Below are positions 38,707-44,666 of a stretch of 64,000 bases of DNA, piece after piece (the stretch's first letter is position 1; every line of letters begins with the position of its first letter). A program made the translations under genes and the position numbers. The notes beneath the pieces are model-generated. The model ran no database searches. It worked only from the letters and a program-made list of their open reading frames with translations, and was not told where the DNA came from. Source of the stretch: Pedobacter sp. (GTDB lineage: Bacteria; Bacteroidota; Bacteroidia; Sphingobacteriales; Sphingobacteriaceae); the NCBI RefSeq assembly GCF_031119335.1, contig NZ_JAVHXT010000003.1, forward strand, positions 271,355-335,354, read 5' to 3'.

Positions 38707-39636
38707 ATGACGTTTACCGGAAGTGATATTTCTGTAGGCACACTATTTAGTTTTGTGATCGTTTTGACCATAGTTGAGATGTATTTCAGCTATTCTCATG
38801 ATAAAAAGCTTTATACTAAAAAAGATACCTGGACCAACATTTATTTAATGGTCTGTGCCATATTGGTAAACTTAACCATGAAGTTTGCCACTTTCTATTT
38901 ATTGAATTATTTCTACGATTTTAGGCTTTTTGAGATACACAATCCATGGGTGTACTGGATTGTTTTGGTACTTGCGCAAGATTTGCTTTATTGGTTTTTA
39001 CACACCGTGGGGCATAATGTGCGTTTTTTTTGGGCTATGCACGTTACCCATCATTCGTCAGAACATTTTAACCTAACTACGGGATTTCGTTCTACAGTTT
39101 TTGAGCCTTTTTACAGAGTATTTTTTTACTTGCCTTTAGCTTTTATGGGTTTTAACGCTATGGATATCATGTTTGCCTATCTTATCACGCAGATTTATGG
39201 CAACTTGGTACACACCAGAACCGTGGGAAAACTCCATCCAGTTTTTGAATACATCTTCGTAACACCTTCTCATCACAGAGTTCATCACGCTTGTAACATC
39301 CGTTATTTGGATAAAAACATGGGTATGGTACTTATTCTATGGGATAGAATGTTCGGTACTTTCCAAGAAGAGTTACCTGAAGACGAAATAAAATATGGTT
39401 TAACTACACCACCTGAAGATAAAGGGGCTTTTAACATTATTTTTCACGAGTTTTTAGCTTTAAGTAAGGATGTAAAAAAGGCGCCAGCTTTTTCTGATAA
39501 GCTAAAATATATCTTTAATCCTCCTGGTTGGAGCCACGATGGCAGCACTCAAATTGCGAAAAAAATGCAAAAAGAGCTACTAGAAGTAGAAAAGGAAAGC
39601 CACTACATTGGAAACAGCGTTAAAACTTTCAGTTAA
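38707..39636 (+). CDS. sterol desaturase/fatty acid hydroxylase family protein
   Basis: His boxes HTVGH, HVTHHSSEHFN, HRVHHACN. Confidence 0.92.
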   Translation: MTFTGSDISVGTLFSFVIVLTIVEMYFSYSHDKKLYTKKDTWTNIYLMVCAILVNLTMKFATFYLLNYFYDFRLFEIHNPWVYWIVLVLAQDLLYWFLHTVGHNVRFFWAMHVTHHSSEHFNLTTGFRSTVFEPFYRVFFYLPLAFMGFNAMDIMFAYLITQIYGNLVHTRTVGKLHPVFEYIFVTPSHHRVHHACNIRYLDKNMGMVLILWDRMFGTFQEELPEDEIKYGLTTPPEDKGAFNIIFHEFLALSKDVKKAPAFSDKLKYIFNPPGWSHDGSTQIAKKMQKELLEVEKESHYIGNSVKTFS

Positions 39637-39694
39637 AATACCGTTTCGTTATTTGGTTCAAAAACCACAAAATAAAATTATTTTCATTTAACTA

Positions 39695-39725
39695 TTGACA
39701 AATTAAATTTGTTGGTGTACATTTG
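39695..39725 (+). promoter_or_regulatory. Bacteroidota-type promoter for the pheA leader
   Basis: TTG(ACA) at 39695 and perfect TACATTTG (TAnnTTTG) at 39718-39725, 20 nt apart. Confidence 0.7.
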
Positions 39726-39742
39726 ACACCAGAAGACAAAAA

Positions 39743-39805
39743 ATGAATTTTAACACTACATATTGGTTTGGTTACTTTTACTACTTTAGTAAGAGCCAGG
39801 GCTAG
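39743..39805 (+). CDS. aromatic-rich leader peptide MNFNTTYWFGYFYYFSKSQG (pheA attenuator)
   Basis: 20 aa with 4 Phe, 4 Tyr, 1 Trp; 8 of 9 residues aromatic in YWFGYFYYF; followed by antiterminator/terminator and pheA. Confidence 0.85.
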   Translation: MNFNTTYWFGYFYYFSKSQG

Positions 39806-39842
39806 TATGCAGAAAAATATATAAAAGATATTTAAAATGTGT

Positions 39843-39878
39843 AAAAAGGTCCTGGCTAAAAAGTCAGGACCTTTTTTT
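39843..39878 (+). terminator. attenuator terminator upstream of pheA
   Basis: AAAAAGGTCCTGGC-TAAAAA-GTCAGGACCTTTTTTT hairpin with U-tract; its 5' arm can instead pair with AGCCAGGGCT at the end of the leader ORF. Confidence 0.9.
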
Positions 39879-39891
39879 GTTTAGCGCAATT

Positions 39892-40725
39892 ATGAAGACA
39901 AAAACAAGGGTAGCCATACAAGGTATTAAAGCATCATTCCACGAAGAGGCAGCGTTCAAATTTTTCGGTAGAGATATTGAAACAGTTGAGTGCAACTCGT
40001 TTAAACAAACCTGCGATGTATTGGATGACGATAAAGCTGACTATGTAGTAATGGCAATTGAAAACTCTATTGCTGGTAGTTTATTACCCAACTACACTTT
40101 AATTAGAGAATACAATCTTGCCGTTGTTGGCGAAGTTTACCTACCTATCCAGTTACACTTATTGGCATTACCAGGTGTAAAATTCGAAGACATTAAAGTG
40201 GCTACATCCCACCCTATCGCCATTAGGCAATGTGTAGATTTTTTCGAGGAATTTCCTCAAATACAAGTAATAGAAGGAAATGATACTGCCGCTTGTGCTA
40301 AAAAAATAAAAGACGGACAGCTAAAAGATACTGTCGCTATTGCCAACGCCTTAGCTGCAGAAACTTATGGCTTAGATATCATTGAAAGAAGAATAGAATC
40401 TAATAAAAAGAATTTCACCCGTTTCTTAATTCTTAGAAAAGACAAAGCTGAAGTGGAAAAAGGGATCAATAAAGCCTCTATCTGTTTTCAGGTTGGTCAC
40501 CACGTTGGTGCTTTGGCTCAAGTACTTCAAATCTTTGCAGAATTGAATGTTAATTTAACAAAAATACAATCTATGCCAGTACTTGGTCGTAGAAACGAAT
40601 ACTACTTTTATGTAGATATCGAATGGAAAAGCATAGAAAACTATGATACCGCCATTAGAAAAGTGTTAAAGTACACTGTGAATTTCAACATCATGGGCGA
40701 ATACATTAAGAACGACAAAGTATAG
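39892..40725 (+). CDS. pheA: prephenate dehydratase
   Basis: VAIQGIKASFHEEAA, N-S/T motifs, SIAGSLLPNY, NFTRFLIL, ACT domain. ATG at 39892 preferred to TTG 39877 in the U-tract. Confidence 0.93.
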   Translation: MKTKTRVAIQGIKASFHEEAAFKFFGRDIETVECNSFKQTCDVLDDDKADYVVMAIENSIAGSLLPNYTLIREYNLAVVGEVYLPIQLHLLALPGVKFEDIKVATSHPIAIRQCVDFFEEFPQIQVIEGNDTAACAKKIKDGQLKDTVAIANALAAETYGLDIIERRIESNKKNFTRFLILRKDKAEVEKGINKASICFQVGHHVGALAQVLQIFAELNVNLTKIQSMPVLGRRNEYYFYVDIEWKSIENYDTAIRKVLKYTVNFNIMGEYIKNDKV

Positions 40726-40845: not shown

Positions 40846-41988
40846 ATGAAACTTAATTTAAACATCGAGCCTTTAGAAAACTGGCTAACGGCAAACAACC
40901 AGCCTTTATTAATCTCTGGACCTTGTAGTGCAGAAACTGAAGATCAATTATTAACTACTGCACATTTACTAGCTGCTACTGGCAAAGTAAGTGTTTTAAG
41001 AGCTGGTATTTGGAAACCTCGTACTCGTCCGGGAGAATTTGAAGGAATTGGCAGTATTGGTTTAGAATGGTTAAAACGTGCTAAAGCAGAAACTGGATTA
41101 CCTACAGCGGTAGAAGTTGCTAATGCAAAACACGTGGAAGAAGCTCTAGCTGCTGGCGTAGATATCCTTTGGATTGGTGCTCGTTCTACTGTAAACCCTT
41201 TCACAGTACAAGAAATTGCTGATGCTTTACAAGGACACGACATCCCTGTTTTGATTAAAAACCCAGTAAATCCAGATTTACAATTGTGGATTGGAGCTAT
41301 TGAGCGTATCAATAAGGCAGGAATTACCAAAATTGGTGCTATTCACCGTGGTTTCTCTTCGTTCGAGAAATCTTCGTTCCGTAACGAACCAATGTGGGAA
41401 CTTGCTATCCAATTAAAAACGCTTTGCCCAGATTTGCCAATCATTAACGACCCAAGTCACATTTGCGGTAACCGTGAACTAATTCCTTACATTTCTCAAA
41501 AAGCGTTAGACTTAGATATGCAAGGCTTAATGATTGAGTCGCACTTAGACCCATCAGTAGCCTGGACAGATGCTAAACAACAGTTAACTCCTGCCGCAGT
41601 AAGCGAATTAATGGACCGTTTAACAGTTCGTGAGCCAGAGTCGGCAAACGAAGCTTTTGTAGATAAATTAGCTGATTTACGTAAATCAATTGATAAGATT
41701 GATGATTTGTTACTGCAAAAATTAGGTGAGCGTATGTCTATCGTTGAGAAAATTGGCGAGTACAAACGTGATAACCAAGTAACTGTATTGCAAGTTAATC
41801 GTTGGGATGAAATCCTTAAAAAAGGAACTTCATTTGCTAAAGCTTTGAAATTAGATTTGCATTTTACTGAGAAATTCTTGGAATTGGTACACGGCGAATC
41901 TATCCGTAAACAAACTGAAATTTTAAACGCTGGCCAAGCTACTCAAGCAGGAATTGCAGCTGAGCAACACACAGAAGTAAAAGCTTAA
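40846..41988 (+). CDS. bifunctional 3-deoxy-7-phosphoheptulonate synthase/chorismate mutase
   Basis: SGPCSAETEDQ, KPRTRPGEFEGIG, DPSHICG; C-terminal CM domain LRKSIDKIDDLLLQKLGERMSIVEKIGEYK. Confidence 0.93.
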   Translation: MKLNLNIEPLENWLTANNQPLLISGPCSAETEDQLLTTAHLLAATGKVSVLRAGIWKPRTRPGEFEGIGSIGLEWLKRAKAETGLPTAVEVANAKHVEEALAAGVDILWIGARSTVNPFTVQEIADALQGHDIPVLIKNPVNPDLQLWIGAIERINKAGITKIGAIHRGFSSFEKSSFRNEPMWELAIQLKTLCPDLPIINDPSHICGNRELIPYISQKALDLDMQGLMIESHLDPSVAWTDAKQQLTPAAVSELMDRLTVREPESANEAFVDKLADLRKSIDKIDDLLLQKLGERMSIVEKIGEYKRDNQVTVLQVNRWDEILKKGTSFAKALKLDLHFTEKFLELVHGESIRKQTEILNAGQATQAGIAAEQHTEVKA

Positions 41989-42025: not shown

Positions 42026-42114
42026 GTTCCGTCATTTCGACGAGGAACGAGGAGAAATCTAACAATTTGCTAGATATCTCACCCGAAGAATTATCGGGTT
42101 CGATATGACGGAAC
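42026..42114. repeat. palindromic repeat of GTCATTTCGA family
   Basis: GTTCCGTCATTTCGA / TCGATATGACGGAAC, 14/15 match; inner GAGAAATCT / AGATATCTC. Confidence 0.7.
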
Positions 42115-42157: not shown

Positions 42158-43423
42158 ATGCATAAAAATGCGATTGTTTCTTTTAAAGGAACACAAAATA
42201 TACAAGCGGAAATACAACTAACAGGCTCAAAAAGCGAATGCAACAGAGCACTGATTATCAAATCGTTGAGCAAGAAATTGGTAAAAGTAGAAAACTTATC
42301 AAACGCTGCCGACACCGTTACCCTAAATGCTATCCTTTCTGATTTAGATACCTATGAGAATGATAGCACTATCGAAAAAACTGTAGATGTAGGTCCAGCT
42401 GGCACTGCCATGCGTTTTTTATCAGCCTACCTATCTGCTAAAAATGGAAACTTCCTACTAACAGGAACCGAACGCATGAAGCAACGTCCCATTGGGATTT
42501 TAGCTGATGCCTTGAAAGAAATTGGTGCAGATATCAGCTATGCTGAAAAAGAAGGCTTCCCTCCGTTGGCTATCAACGGCCCATTAGCTCAAACAAGTTC
42601 GCACATCAAAATAAAAGGAGACATTAGCAGTCAATATATTTCGGCTTTGCTGATGTTAGCTCCTACCCTTAAACAAGGTTTAACCCTAGAAATTGTTGGC
42701 GAATTAACCTCTAAACCATATGTAGAAATGACTTTGGCAATGTTAGCCGAATGTGGCATTTCGCACGAATGGAATGGAAATTTAATTACCATCAAACATC
42801 AAGAATTTAAGCCCTCTACGCTTATTGTTGAACCAGATTGGAGCGCCGCTTCTTATTGGTACAGCATTGTAGCTTTGGCAAAACAAGCACAAATTACCTT
42901 ACCGCACCTGCGGGATAAAAGTTTGCAGGGAGATAGCCAAATCAAAACCATTATGGAGATTTTTGGCTTGAGTACTACTAAAACTGATAACGGAATAGCT
43001 TTTACAAAAGACCAAGCCATTAAAGACACCGATAAAGTTTTAGACTTAAAAACTTGCCCAGATTTGGCACAAACCATTGTAGTTGTTGCGGCTGCTTTGG
43101 GAATAAATATGGCTTTTACAGGTTTAGAAACCTTAAAAATAAAAGAAACCGACCGTGTTGCGGCATTGCAAAACGAGTTGGCAAAAATTGGCGTGAAGCT
43201 AAATGAAGATAACTTAGTTTACACTTTAGATTGCGCTGAACTTCATTTCCCTAAAAAGGTAAGCATCGCTACTTACGAAGACCACCGTATGGCAATGGCT
43301 TTTGCTCCTTTGGCTTTATTAATTGAGGAACTGGAAATTGAAGACTATAACGTAGTTGAAAAATCTTATCCTTATTTTTGGGAAGACTTAAAGAAGGTGG
43401 GATTTGAAATCAGTATTGCGTAA
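42158..43423 (+). CDS. aroA: 3-phosphoshikimate 1-carboxyvinyltransferase
   Basis: GSKSECNRALII, GPAGTAMRFLSAYL, GDISSQYISALLM, KETDRVAALQNELAK. Confidence 0.94.
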   Translation: MHKNAIVSFKGTQNIQAEIQLTGSKSECNRALIIKSLSKKLVKVENLSNAADTVTLNAILSDLDTYENDSTIEKTVDVGPAGTAMRFLSAYLSAKNGNFLLTGTERMKQRPIGILADALKEIGADISYAEKEGFPPLAINGPLAQTSSHIKIKGDISSQYISALLMLAPTLKQGLTLEIVGELTSKPYVEMTLAMLAECGISHEWNGNLITIKHQEFKPSTLIVEPDWSAASYWYSIVALAKQAQITLPHLRDKSLQGDSQIKTIMEIFGLSTTKTDNGIAFTKDQAIKDTDKVLDLKTCPDLAQTIVVVAAALGINMAFTGLETLKIKETDRVAALQNELAKIGVKLNEDNLVYTLDCAELHFPKKVSIATYEDHRMAMAFAPLALLIEELEIEDYNVVEKSYPYFWEDLKKVGFEISIA

Positions 43424-43532
43424 TGCGATTTGCGTATTGCGACATTACCCATAACTAAACAAAATACAGCTAACGCTATTTGCGTGCTGCAATTAATAAA
43501 CCAATAGACGAAACTGTATTGCACAAGAGTAT

Positions 43533-43560
43533 CTCAATACTCAATACTCAATACTCAATA
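43533..43560 (+). repeat. heptanucleotide tandem repeat (CTCAATA)x4
   Basis: Four exact 7-bp units ending 8 bp before the aroC ATG. Confidence 0.95.
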
Positions 43561-43568
43561 CTATAAAC

Positions 43569-44666
43569 ATGGCAGGCAACTCATTCGGACAATTATTTCG
43601 CATTACAACTTTTGGTGAATCTCATGGTGTAGCCATAGGCGTTATTTTAGATGGATGTCCGGCAGGATTGGAGATAGATTTAGATTTCATACAATCGGAG
43701 CTAGACAAAAGAAAACCTGGTCAATCGAAAATTACTACTCAACGTAAGGAAAGCGATACCGTTCAAATTCTTTCTGGAACTTTTGAAGGAAAAAGCACAG
43801 GAACGCCAATTGCGATGTTAATTCCAAACGAAGACCAGCGAAGTAAAGATTACGGGCACAATGTGGATGTTTACCGTCCAAGCCATGCAGATTACGTTTA
43901 CGATGCCAAATACGGCATTCGCGACCATCGTGGTGGCGGGCGTTCTTCGGCAAGAGAAACCGCAGCTAGAGTAGCCGCTGGCGCAGTTGCAAAATTGTTG
44001 TTAAAGCATCATGGCATTAATATTTTTGCTCACGTTACAGCAGTTGGAAAAATAAACGCACCTATTTTAGGAAGCGATAACATTGCTGAATTATTGGAAT
44101 TAAGAGAAGCTAATATTGTTCGTTGCGCCGACCCTGCAACAGCAAACGAAATGATTGAATTTATCGACAGCGTTCGTAAAGATGGTGATACTGTTGGTGG
44201 TAAAGTTTCTTGTGTGATAAAAGGATGTCCTGCGGGTTTAGGAGAACCAGTTTTTGATAAACTACATGCAGATTTAGGCAAAGCAATGCTGAGCATCAAT
44301 GCGGTTCATGGCTTTGAATATGGTTCTGGCTTTGAAGGTACTGAATTAAGGGGTTCTGAGCATAATGATGTCCCATTACCAAAATCTCAAGAAGAAAATC
44401 AATTTAAAACCATTACCAACCACGCTGGCGGTATTTTAGGTGGCATTTCTAACGGAATGGATATTACTTTTAAAGTGGGTTTTAAACCTGTAGCTACCAT
44501 TATGCACAATCAACAGACAATTAATGCTGCTGGCGAAGCTTCGGAGATTAAAGGCAAAGGTCGTCATGATCCATGTGTAGTACCAAGAGCTGTGGTAATT
44601 GTAGAAGCAATGGCTGCTTTGGTTTTGGCAGATCATCTGTTAAGGAATAAATCTTCTAAATTGTAA
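43569..44666 (+). CDS. aroC: chorismate synthase
   Basis: [61 protein letters not shown]. Confidence 0.97.

Follow-up and report, generated by a model that had tools for sequence, protein, structure and literature searches.

The window, a stretch of 64,000 nucleotides, belongs to a Pedobacter-type genome whose closest named pheA genes come from Pedobacter xixiisoli, Nubsella zeaxanthinifaciens and Pedobacter helvus. On its forward strand, pheA (39892–40725) encodes a prephenate dehydratase with an ACT domain (Pfam PDT and ACT) and represents the first structural gene of an operon that continues with a DAHP synthase/chorismate mutase fusion (DAHPS/CM; 40846–41988; DAHP_synth_1 and CM_2), the EPSP synthase gene aroA (42158–43423; EPSP_synthase) and the chorismate synthase gene aroC (43569–44666; Chorismate_synt). 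Of 40 family loci viewed across several kb, nearly all preserve the order pheA–DAHPS/CM–aroA–aroC, often with aroB directly upstream of the operon. Since, moreover, a TAnnTTTG promoter was absent from all three intergenic gaps, joint control of the four genes by an attenuator in front of pheA appeared plausible. Two of the gaps contain repeats. Imperfect palindromes of the CCGTCATTTCGACGAGGAACGAG type lie between DAHPS/CM and aroA (42029–42110), with a similar copy upstream of trpE, and look like a REP-like dispersed repeat; a short tandem repeat, CTCAATACT, lies between aroA and aroC (43530–43562).

Upstream of pheA, we recognized a promoter of the Bacteroidota −33/−7 type (39695–39725), composed of TTG (39695–39697), a spacer of 20 nt and TACATTTG (39718–39725). 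It is the top-scoring sigma70-type site within 38–46 kb of the window and would place the transcript start near 39731. Downstream follows an ORF of 20 codons (39743–39805), whose translation MNFNTTYWFGYFYYFSKSQG contains F, Y or W at nine of 20 residues, with codons 7–15 (YWFGYFYYF) as putative sensing codons. An intrinsic terminator (39843–39878), consisting of a hairpin of 15 pairs (39843–39876) and seven T's (39872–39878), ends 13 bp 5′ of the pheA ATG (39892). Promoter, ORF and terminator had been proposed in an earlier note on this DNA and were confirmed base by base, including their coordinates. Between the two promoter boxes lies a perfect 7-bp inverted repeat (39698–39712; ACAAATT-A-AATTTGT). 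This element, ACAAATTAAATTT, recurs unchanged at 20 of 69 family loci, chiefly in the Pedobacter group, and is possibly an operator for some regulator.

A TAnnTTTG box was present upstream of 63 of the 69 family leaders. The median distance of 17 nt from the end of the box to the leader start codon indicates a very short 5′ UTR. Indeed, the 5′ UTR of the window leader would measure about 12 nt and contains no Shine–Dalgarno motif, so that efficient ribosome initiation on the leader is an assumption of our model. Likewise, a Shine–Dalgarno-like tetramer was found in none of the 69 family leaders within the stretch scanned before the start codon, and the 12 bases preceding this codon were 65% A.

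With nine aromatic residues, the leader was unique among 609 ATG-started ORFs of 12–30 codons on both strands of the window, and its density of eight aromatics per ten codons was reached by none of 2000 dinucleotide shuffles of positions 39636–39891. Scanning for leader-plus-terminator candidates of several amino-acid classes revealed no others in the 64 kb. An aromatic leader preceded pheA at 69 of 70 loci of the family Sphingobacteriaceae, covering more than twenty genera; the sole leaderless locus carries a diverged pheA (42% identity). Among named Pedobacter-group loci, all 79 with enough upstream sequence possessed the leader, while the contig of the 80th was too short. A covariance model trained on 66 leaders matched in 151/151 genomes of the order sample and gave one strong match in the Pedobacter genome itself (118 bits, the next scoring 41). 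The 21 weaker matches in this genome (≤41 bits), several of them overlapping on both strands, were overall judged to be terminator look-alikes rather than further copies of the element.

The same switch precedes pheA in much of Bacteroidia. In a first distant set, a dense aromatic leader was detected at 20 of 33 pheA loci, compared to 0.34 expected by shuffling, and a second sample yielded leaders at 14/16 loci of the same class and 3/20 loci of other classes. A leader of such type was missing at 11/33 loci of the first set, 2/16 further same-class loci and 17/20 other-class loci; at least several leaderless distant loci have pheA inside an operon or a diverged pheA. The leader-bearing distant loci span about fifteen further family-level groups. 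Many distant loci share a GTCCCG-type terminator arm, which may point to common descent of their leaders.

Further regularities emerged from the leaders themselves. At the aromatic positions of the 66 aligned leaders, TTT, TTC, TAT, TAC and TGG replace each other, yet most positions remain aromatic. Nine of the 66 leaders stop within a few codons of the aromatic run, while the nucleotides of the segment that pairs with the terminator (segment 2, see below) persist past the stop. This finding suggested that what is retained is the RNA in the case of the SKSRD-type tail and the codons in the case of the aromatic run.

The leader RNA was far more stable than its shuffled counterparts (fold z-score −5.1) and can be divided into four segments. 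Segment 2 (39794–39803), the 5′ arm of the antiterminator, consists of AGCCAGGGCT within the last codons of the leader. It pairs over 10 bp, including two G–U pairs, with segment 3 (39848–39857; GGTCCTGGCT), which is common to antiterminator and terminator. Since the 3:4 terminator hairpin also requires segment 3, the two structures are mutually exclusive. The potential for this antiterminator pairing, described in the earlier note, was confirmed. In addition, we noticed a 1:2 'protector' hairpin that had been overlooked: the first part of the aromatic run (CATATTGG..) can pair with a stretch containing segment 2 (..CTAGTATG), as seen in the minimum free energy fold. Segment 1 (39760–39777), located in the first aromatic codons, forms the 5′ part of this hairpin.

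Covariation was assessed in an alignment of 66 family leaders, three of the 69 being too divergent to align. Of the alignment cells, 94.9% were paired for the terminator (3:4), 87.4% for the antiterminator (2:3) and 93.7% for the protector (1:2). Double changes had occurred in 9 of the 12 terminator pairs and in 6 of the 10 antiterminator pairs; these counts do not represent independent events because the leaders are mutually related. Controls for the three helices, in which the pairing partners were slid by one to three columns, were only 21–72% paired. Segments 2 and 4 are almost identical, and both co-vary with segment 3; for instance, the arms read CCAGG/CCTGG in one Pedobacter group versus CCGGG/CCCGG in most others. 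Aligning relatives, a check proposed in the earlier note, thus revealed conserved aromatic codons as well as covarying terminator and antiterminator arms. RNAalifold, without guidance, recovered the inner 1:2 hairpin as well as the terminator. A longer antiterminator helix was discarded, as RNAalifold of the 2–3 region gave the known pairs only, and an extra helix predicted when the window RNA was folded alone was missing in the consensus.

We then modelled the effect of ribosome position. The nascent RNA was folded up to the end of segment 3, with a mask that covered the A-site codon together with 18 nt on its 5′ side and 13 nt on its 3′ side. In the leader of the window, the predicted antiterminator pairing was 0.99 at codons 8–13, 0.79 at codon 14 and 0.45 at codon 15, the final aromatic codon, and was close to zero from codon 16 onwards. 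All 66 family leaders showed high pairing while the A site occupied the first five aromatic codons (mean P(2:3) of 0.93) and none (0.00) at the stop codon, and in 63 of them the last permissive codon was the last aromatic codon or the preceding one. Distant loci, chosen without reference to this coincidence, behaved alike: at 21 loci with leaders of 16–40 codons, the mean distance between the largest drop and the last aromatic codon was 0.67 codon, compared to 5.36 for random positions, as computed from profiles rounded to one decimal. For a second set of 17 distant loci the corresponding values were 0.35 and 5.70. The coincidence was never equalled in 10,000 random draws. Within the limits of a folding model, this tracking of the last aromatic codon by the predicted switch point is the strongest evidence for ribosome stalling on the aromatic codons. 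At equilibrium, the terminator of the full-length RNA was predicted to win in every ribosome state, implying that the switch must be kinetic. In ribosome-free nascent RNA before the synthesis of segment 4, 2:3 pairing was predicted to prevail over 1:2 pairing (0.95 vs. 0.03), so that the protector role of the 1:2 hairpin is uncertain.

Taken together, conservation, covariation and ribosome-position folding lend strong computational support to the earlier proposal of ribosome-mediated attenuation with exclusive terminator and antiterminator. We consider it very probable that the element attenuates transcription of pheA–DAHPS/CM–aroA–aroC in response to the levels of charged tRNA-Phe and tRNA-Tyr. 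From the sequence, its conservation and covariation, the exclusive pairing and the ribosome-position dependence, all of which are established here, the last by folding, we infer the following course of transcription, coupled translation, response and downstream control. RNA polymerase would start near 39731, and a ribosome would load on the leader ORF without a Shine–Dalgarno sequence. If Phe or Tyr is scarce, the ribosome would stall at codons 7–15, masking segment 1 and leaving segment 2 free to pair with the emerging segment 3; no terminator would form and the operon would be read. If both amino acids are ample, the ribosome would get to the end of the ORF and cover segment 2, whereupon segment 3 would pair with segment 4 and transcription would halt before pheA.

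The earlier note had envisaged a mixed Phe/Tyr/Trp sensor, of which the Trp part was not supported. All 66 family leaders contain at least two Phe and at least two Tyr codons (means of 3.6 and 4.2, respectively), while a Trp codon occurs in only 28. Furthermore, the trp operon of this genome is equipped with a Trp leader of its own, MINKTNTWQWRGNSKESFVNGLCKI. It lies upstream of trpE and is followed by a terminator (CCCGACG..CGTCGGG plus a T run), with predicted switching a few codons past the Trp codons; this leader gave no Rfam match, although a Bacteroid-trp family exists. Since Phe and Tyr codons are present in every leader, Trp is inconstant and the trp operon is separately equipped, the pheA leader is best read as a sensor of Phe plus Tyr. 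Such sensing fits the product range of the operon (chorismate, prephenate) and an unlinked tyrA without a visible leader, none being seen upstream of tyrA on inspection by eye. The sole prephenate dehydrogenase candidate detected is a 417-aa protein (contig C2; locus positions 1435–2688), unlinked to the pheA operon, which scores well below the curated bacterial NCBIfam cut-offs and which we presume may be of the fungal Tyr1 type. The same genome also encodes a phenylalanine-hydroxylase-like protein (contig C4:88834–89637; an open frame of 594 aa that matches Biopterin_H twice).

Mixed codons need not mean mixed sensing. The AroR leader of C. glutamicum, located ahead of aroF (DAHP synthase), resembles the pheA leader in carrying Phe and Tyr codons ahead of an aromatic-pathway gene, but belongs to Actinobacteria, has a short Phe-Tyr-Phe (F-Y-F) run and is described as responding to Phe, not Tyr (Neshat 2014, cited in PMC11802643). 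The same attenuator might thus effectively sense Phe only, with neutral Tyr codons, and pheA does represent the commitment to Phe. We nevertheless regard this as rather unlikely, because Tyr codons are conserved at least as well as Phe codons and the operon also yields the chorismate and prephenate required for Tyr, with tyrA lying elsewhere. Readings that dispense with the ribosome or the codons fared worse. Strong structure and a regulated terminator would by themselves fit a ligand- or protein-binding leader (riboswitch, T-box or TRAP-like) with an incidental ORF, which appears highly improbable: Rfam returned no family match at the locus at either the gathering or a relaxed threshold, and Rfam 15 at the gathering cut-off found only tmRNA and one tRNA in the whole window. 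Moreover, the aromatic codons stay while nearby RNA diverges, and the position of the switch shifts with the aromatic run. It is just as improbable that the ORF encodes a functional microprotein and is followed by a terminator. The peptide is conserved within the genus, but several lineages have shortened or replaced its tail (ending in YYPQ, YYKK or YYFR before the stop) while retaining the segment 2 nucleotides, and distant relatives keep the Phe/Tyr density only. An aromatic ORF that lies by chance ahead of an ordinary terminator is conceivable in an A/T-rich genome, where TTT and TAT codons are frequent; given the shuffling results and the dense leaders at distant loci, this reading is hardly credible and is refuted by conservation. 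The attenuator sensing Phe and Tyr therefore remains our preferred reading.

Leader-peptide attenuation is a textbook mechanism, and pheL before E. coli pheA is its classic case. As described in PMC11802643, the pheL–pheA attenuator (Zurawski 1978) shares its logic with the element reported here, having a Phe-rich leader peptide and a terminator ahead of pheA. In place of a run of Phe only, the present leader has a mixed Phe/Tyr run and no Shine–Dalgarno sequence, and a monofunctional pheA heads an operon with DAHPS/CM, aroA and aroC. In the same phylum, Flavobacterium psychrophilum and other Flavobacteriaceae have a structured 5′ element without Rfam match upstream of pheA, and the authors of that work saw clues for leader-peptide attenuation before amino-acid operons (PMC9723704). 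In its main text, neither a leader sequence nor a pairing is given for pheA; the element is probably the same as ours. For the Bacteroides thetaiotaomicron operon pheA>hisHb>aroA-aroQ>tyrA, an upstream attenuator was predicted from the Merino database (PMC1173090, Table 7), where terminator and antiterminator before pheA, as here, are listed by structure. Bacteroid-trp RNA (RF01692) is an attenuator-like leader in Bacteroidetes that likewise belongs to an amino-acid operon, but precedes trp genes (PMC2864571). Its model misses the pheA locus and gave matches of 23–28 bits in the genome, compared to 49 required. The view that such elements are little described in Bacteroidota was hence only partly borne out, in that the three sources above report prior elements and the attenuation idea itself is not new for the phylum. 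A comparative study by Lopatovskaya, Seliverstov and Lyubetsky from 2010 (Mol Biol 44:128) may also have predicted Bacteroidetes attenuators already. New aspects are the architecture in detail, the folding test of ribosome position, the occurrence across many families and the Shine–Dalgarno-free setting with a very short 5′ UTR.

In its widest form, our proposal is that of a Bacteroidia-wide, anciently inherited attenuator with dual sensing of Phe and Tyr, which acts independently of Shine–Dalgarno sequences on a 5′ UTR of about 12 nt and would hence show tight transcription–translation coupling in the phylum; we put this forward tentatively, as a serious possibility. The pheA leader and its RNA model merit an Rfam family and correct annotation. 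The element offers a concrete, testable amino-acid switch in a phylum in which few have been worked out, and could serve as a natural reporter of Phe/Tyr status. Attenuation of this ribosome-mediated kind requires a ribosome close behind RNA polymerase, and a conserved attenuator devoid of Shine–Dalgarno motifs would allow a direct test of transcription–translation coupling in Bacteroidota.
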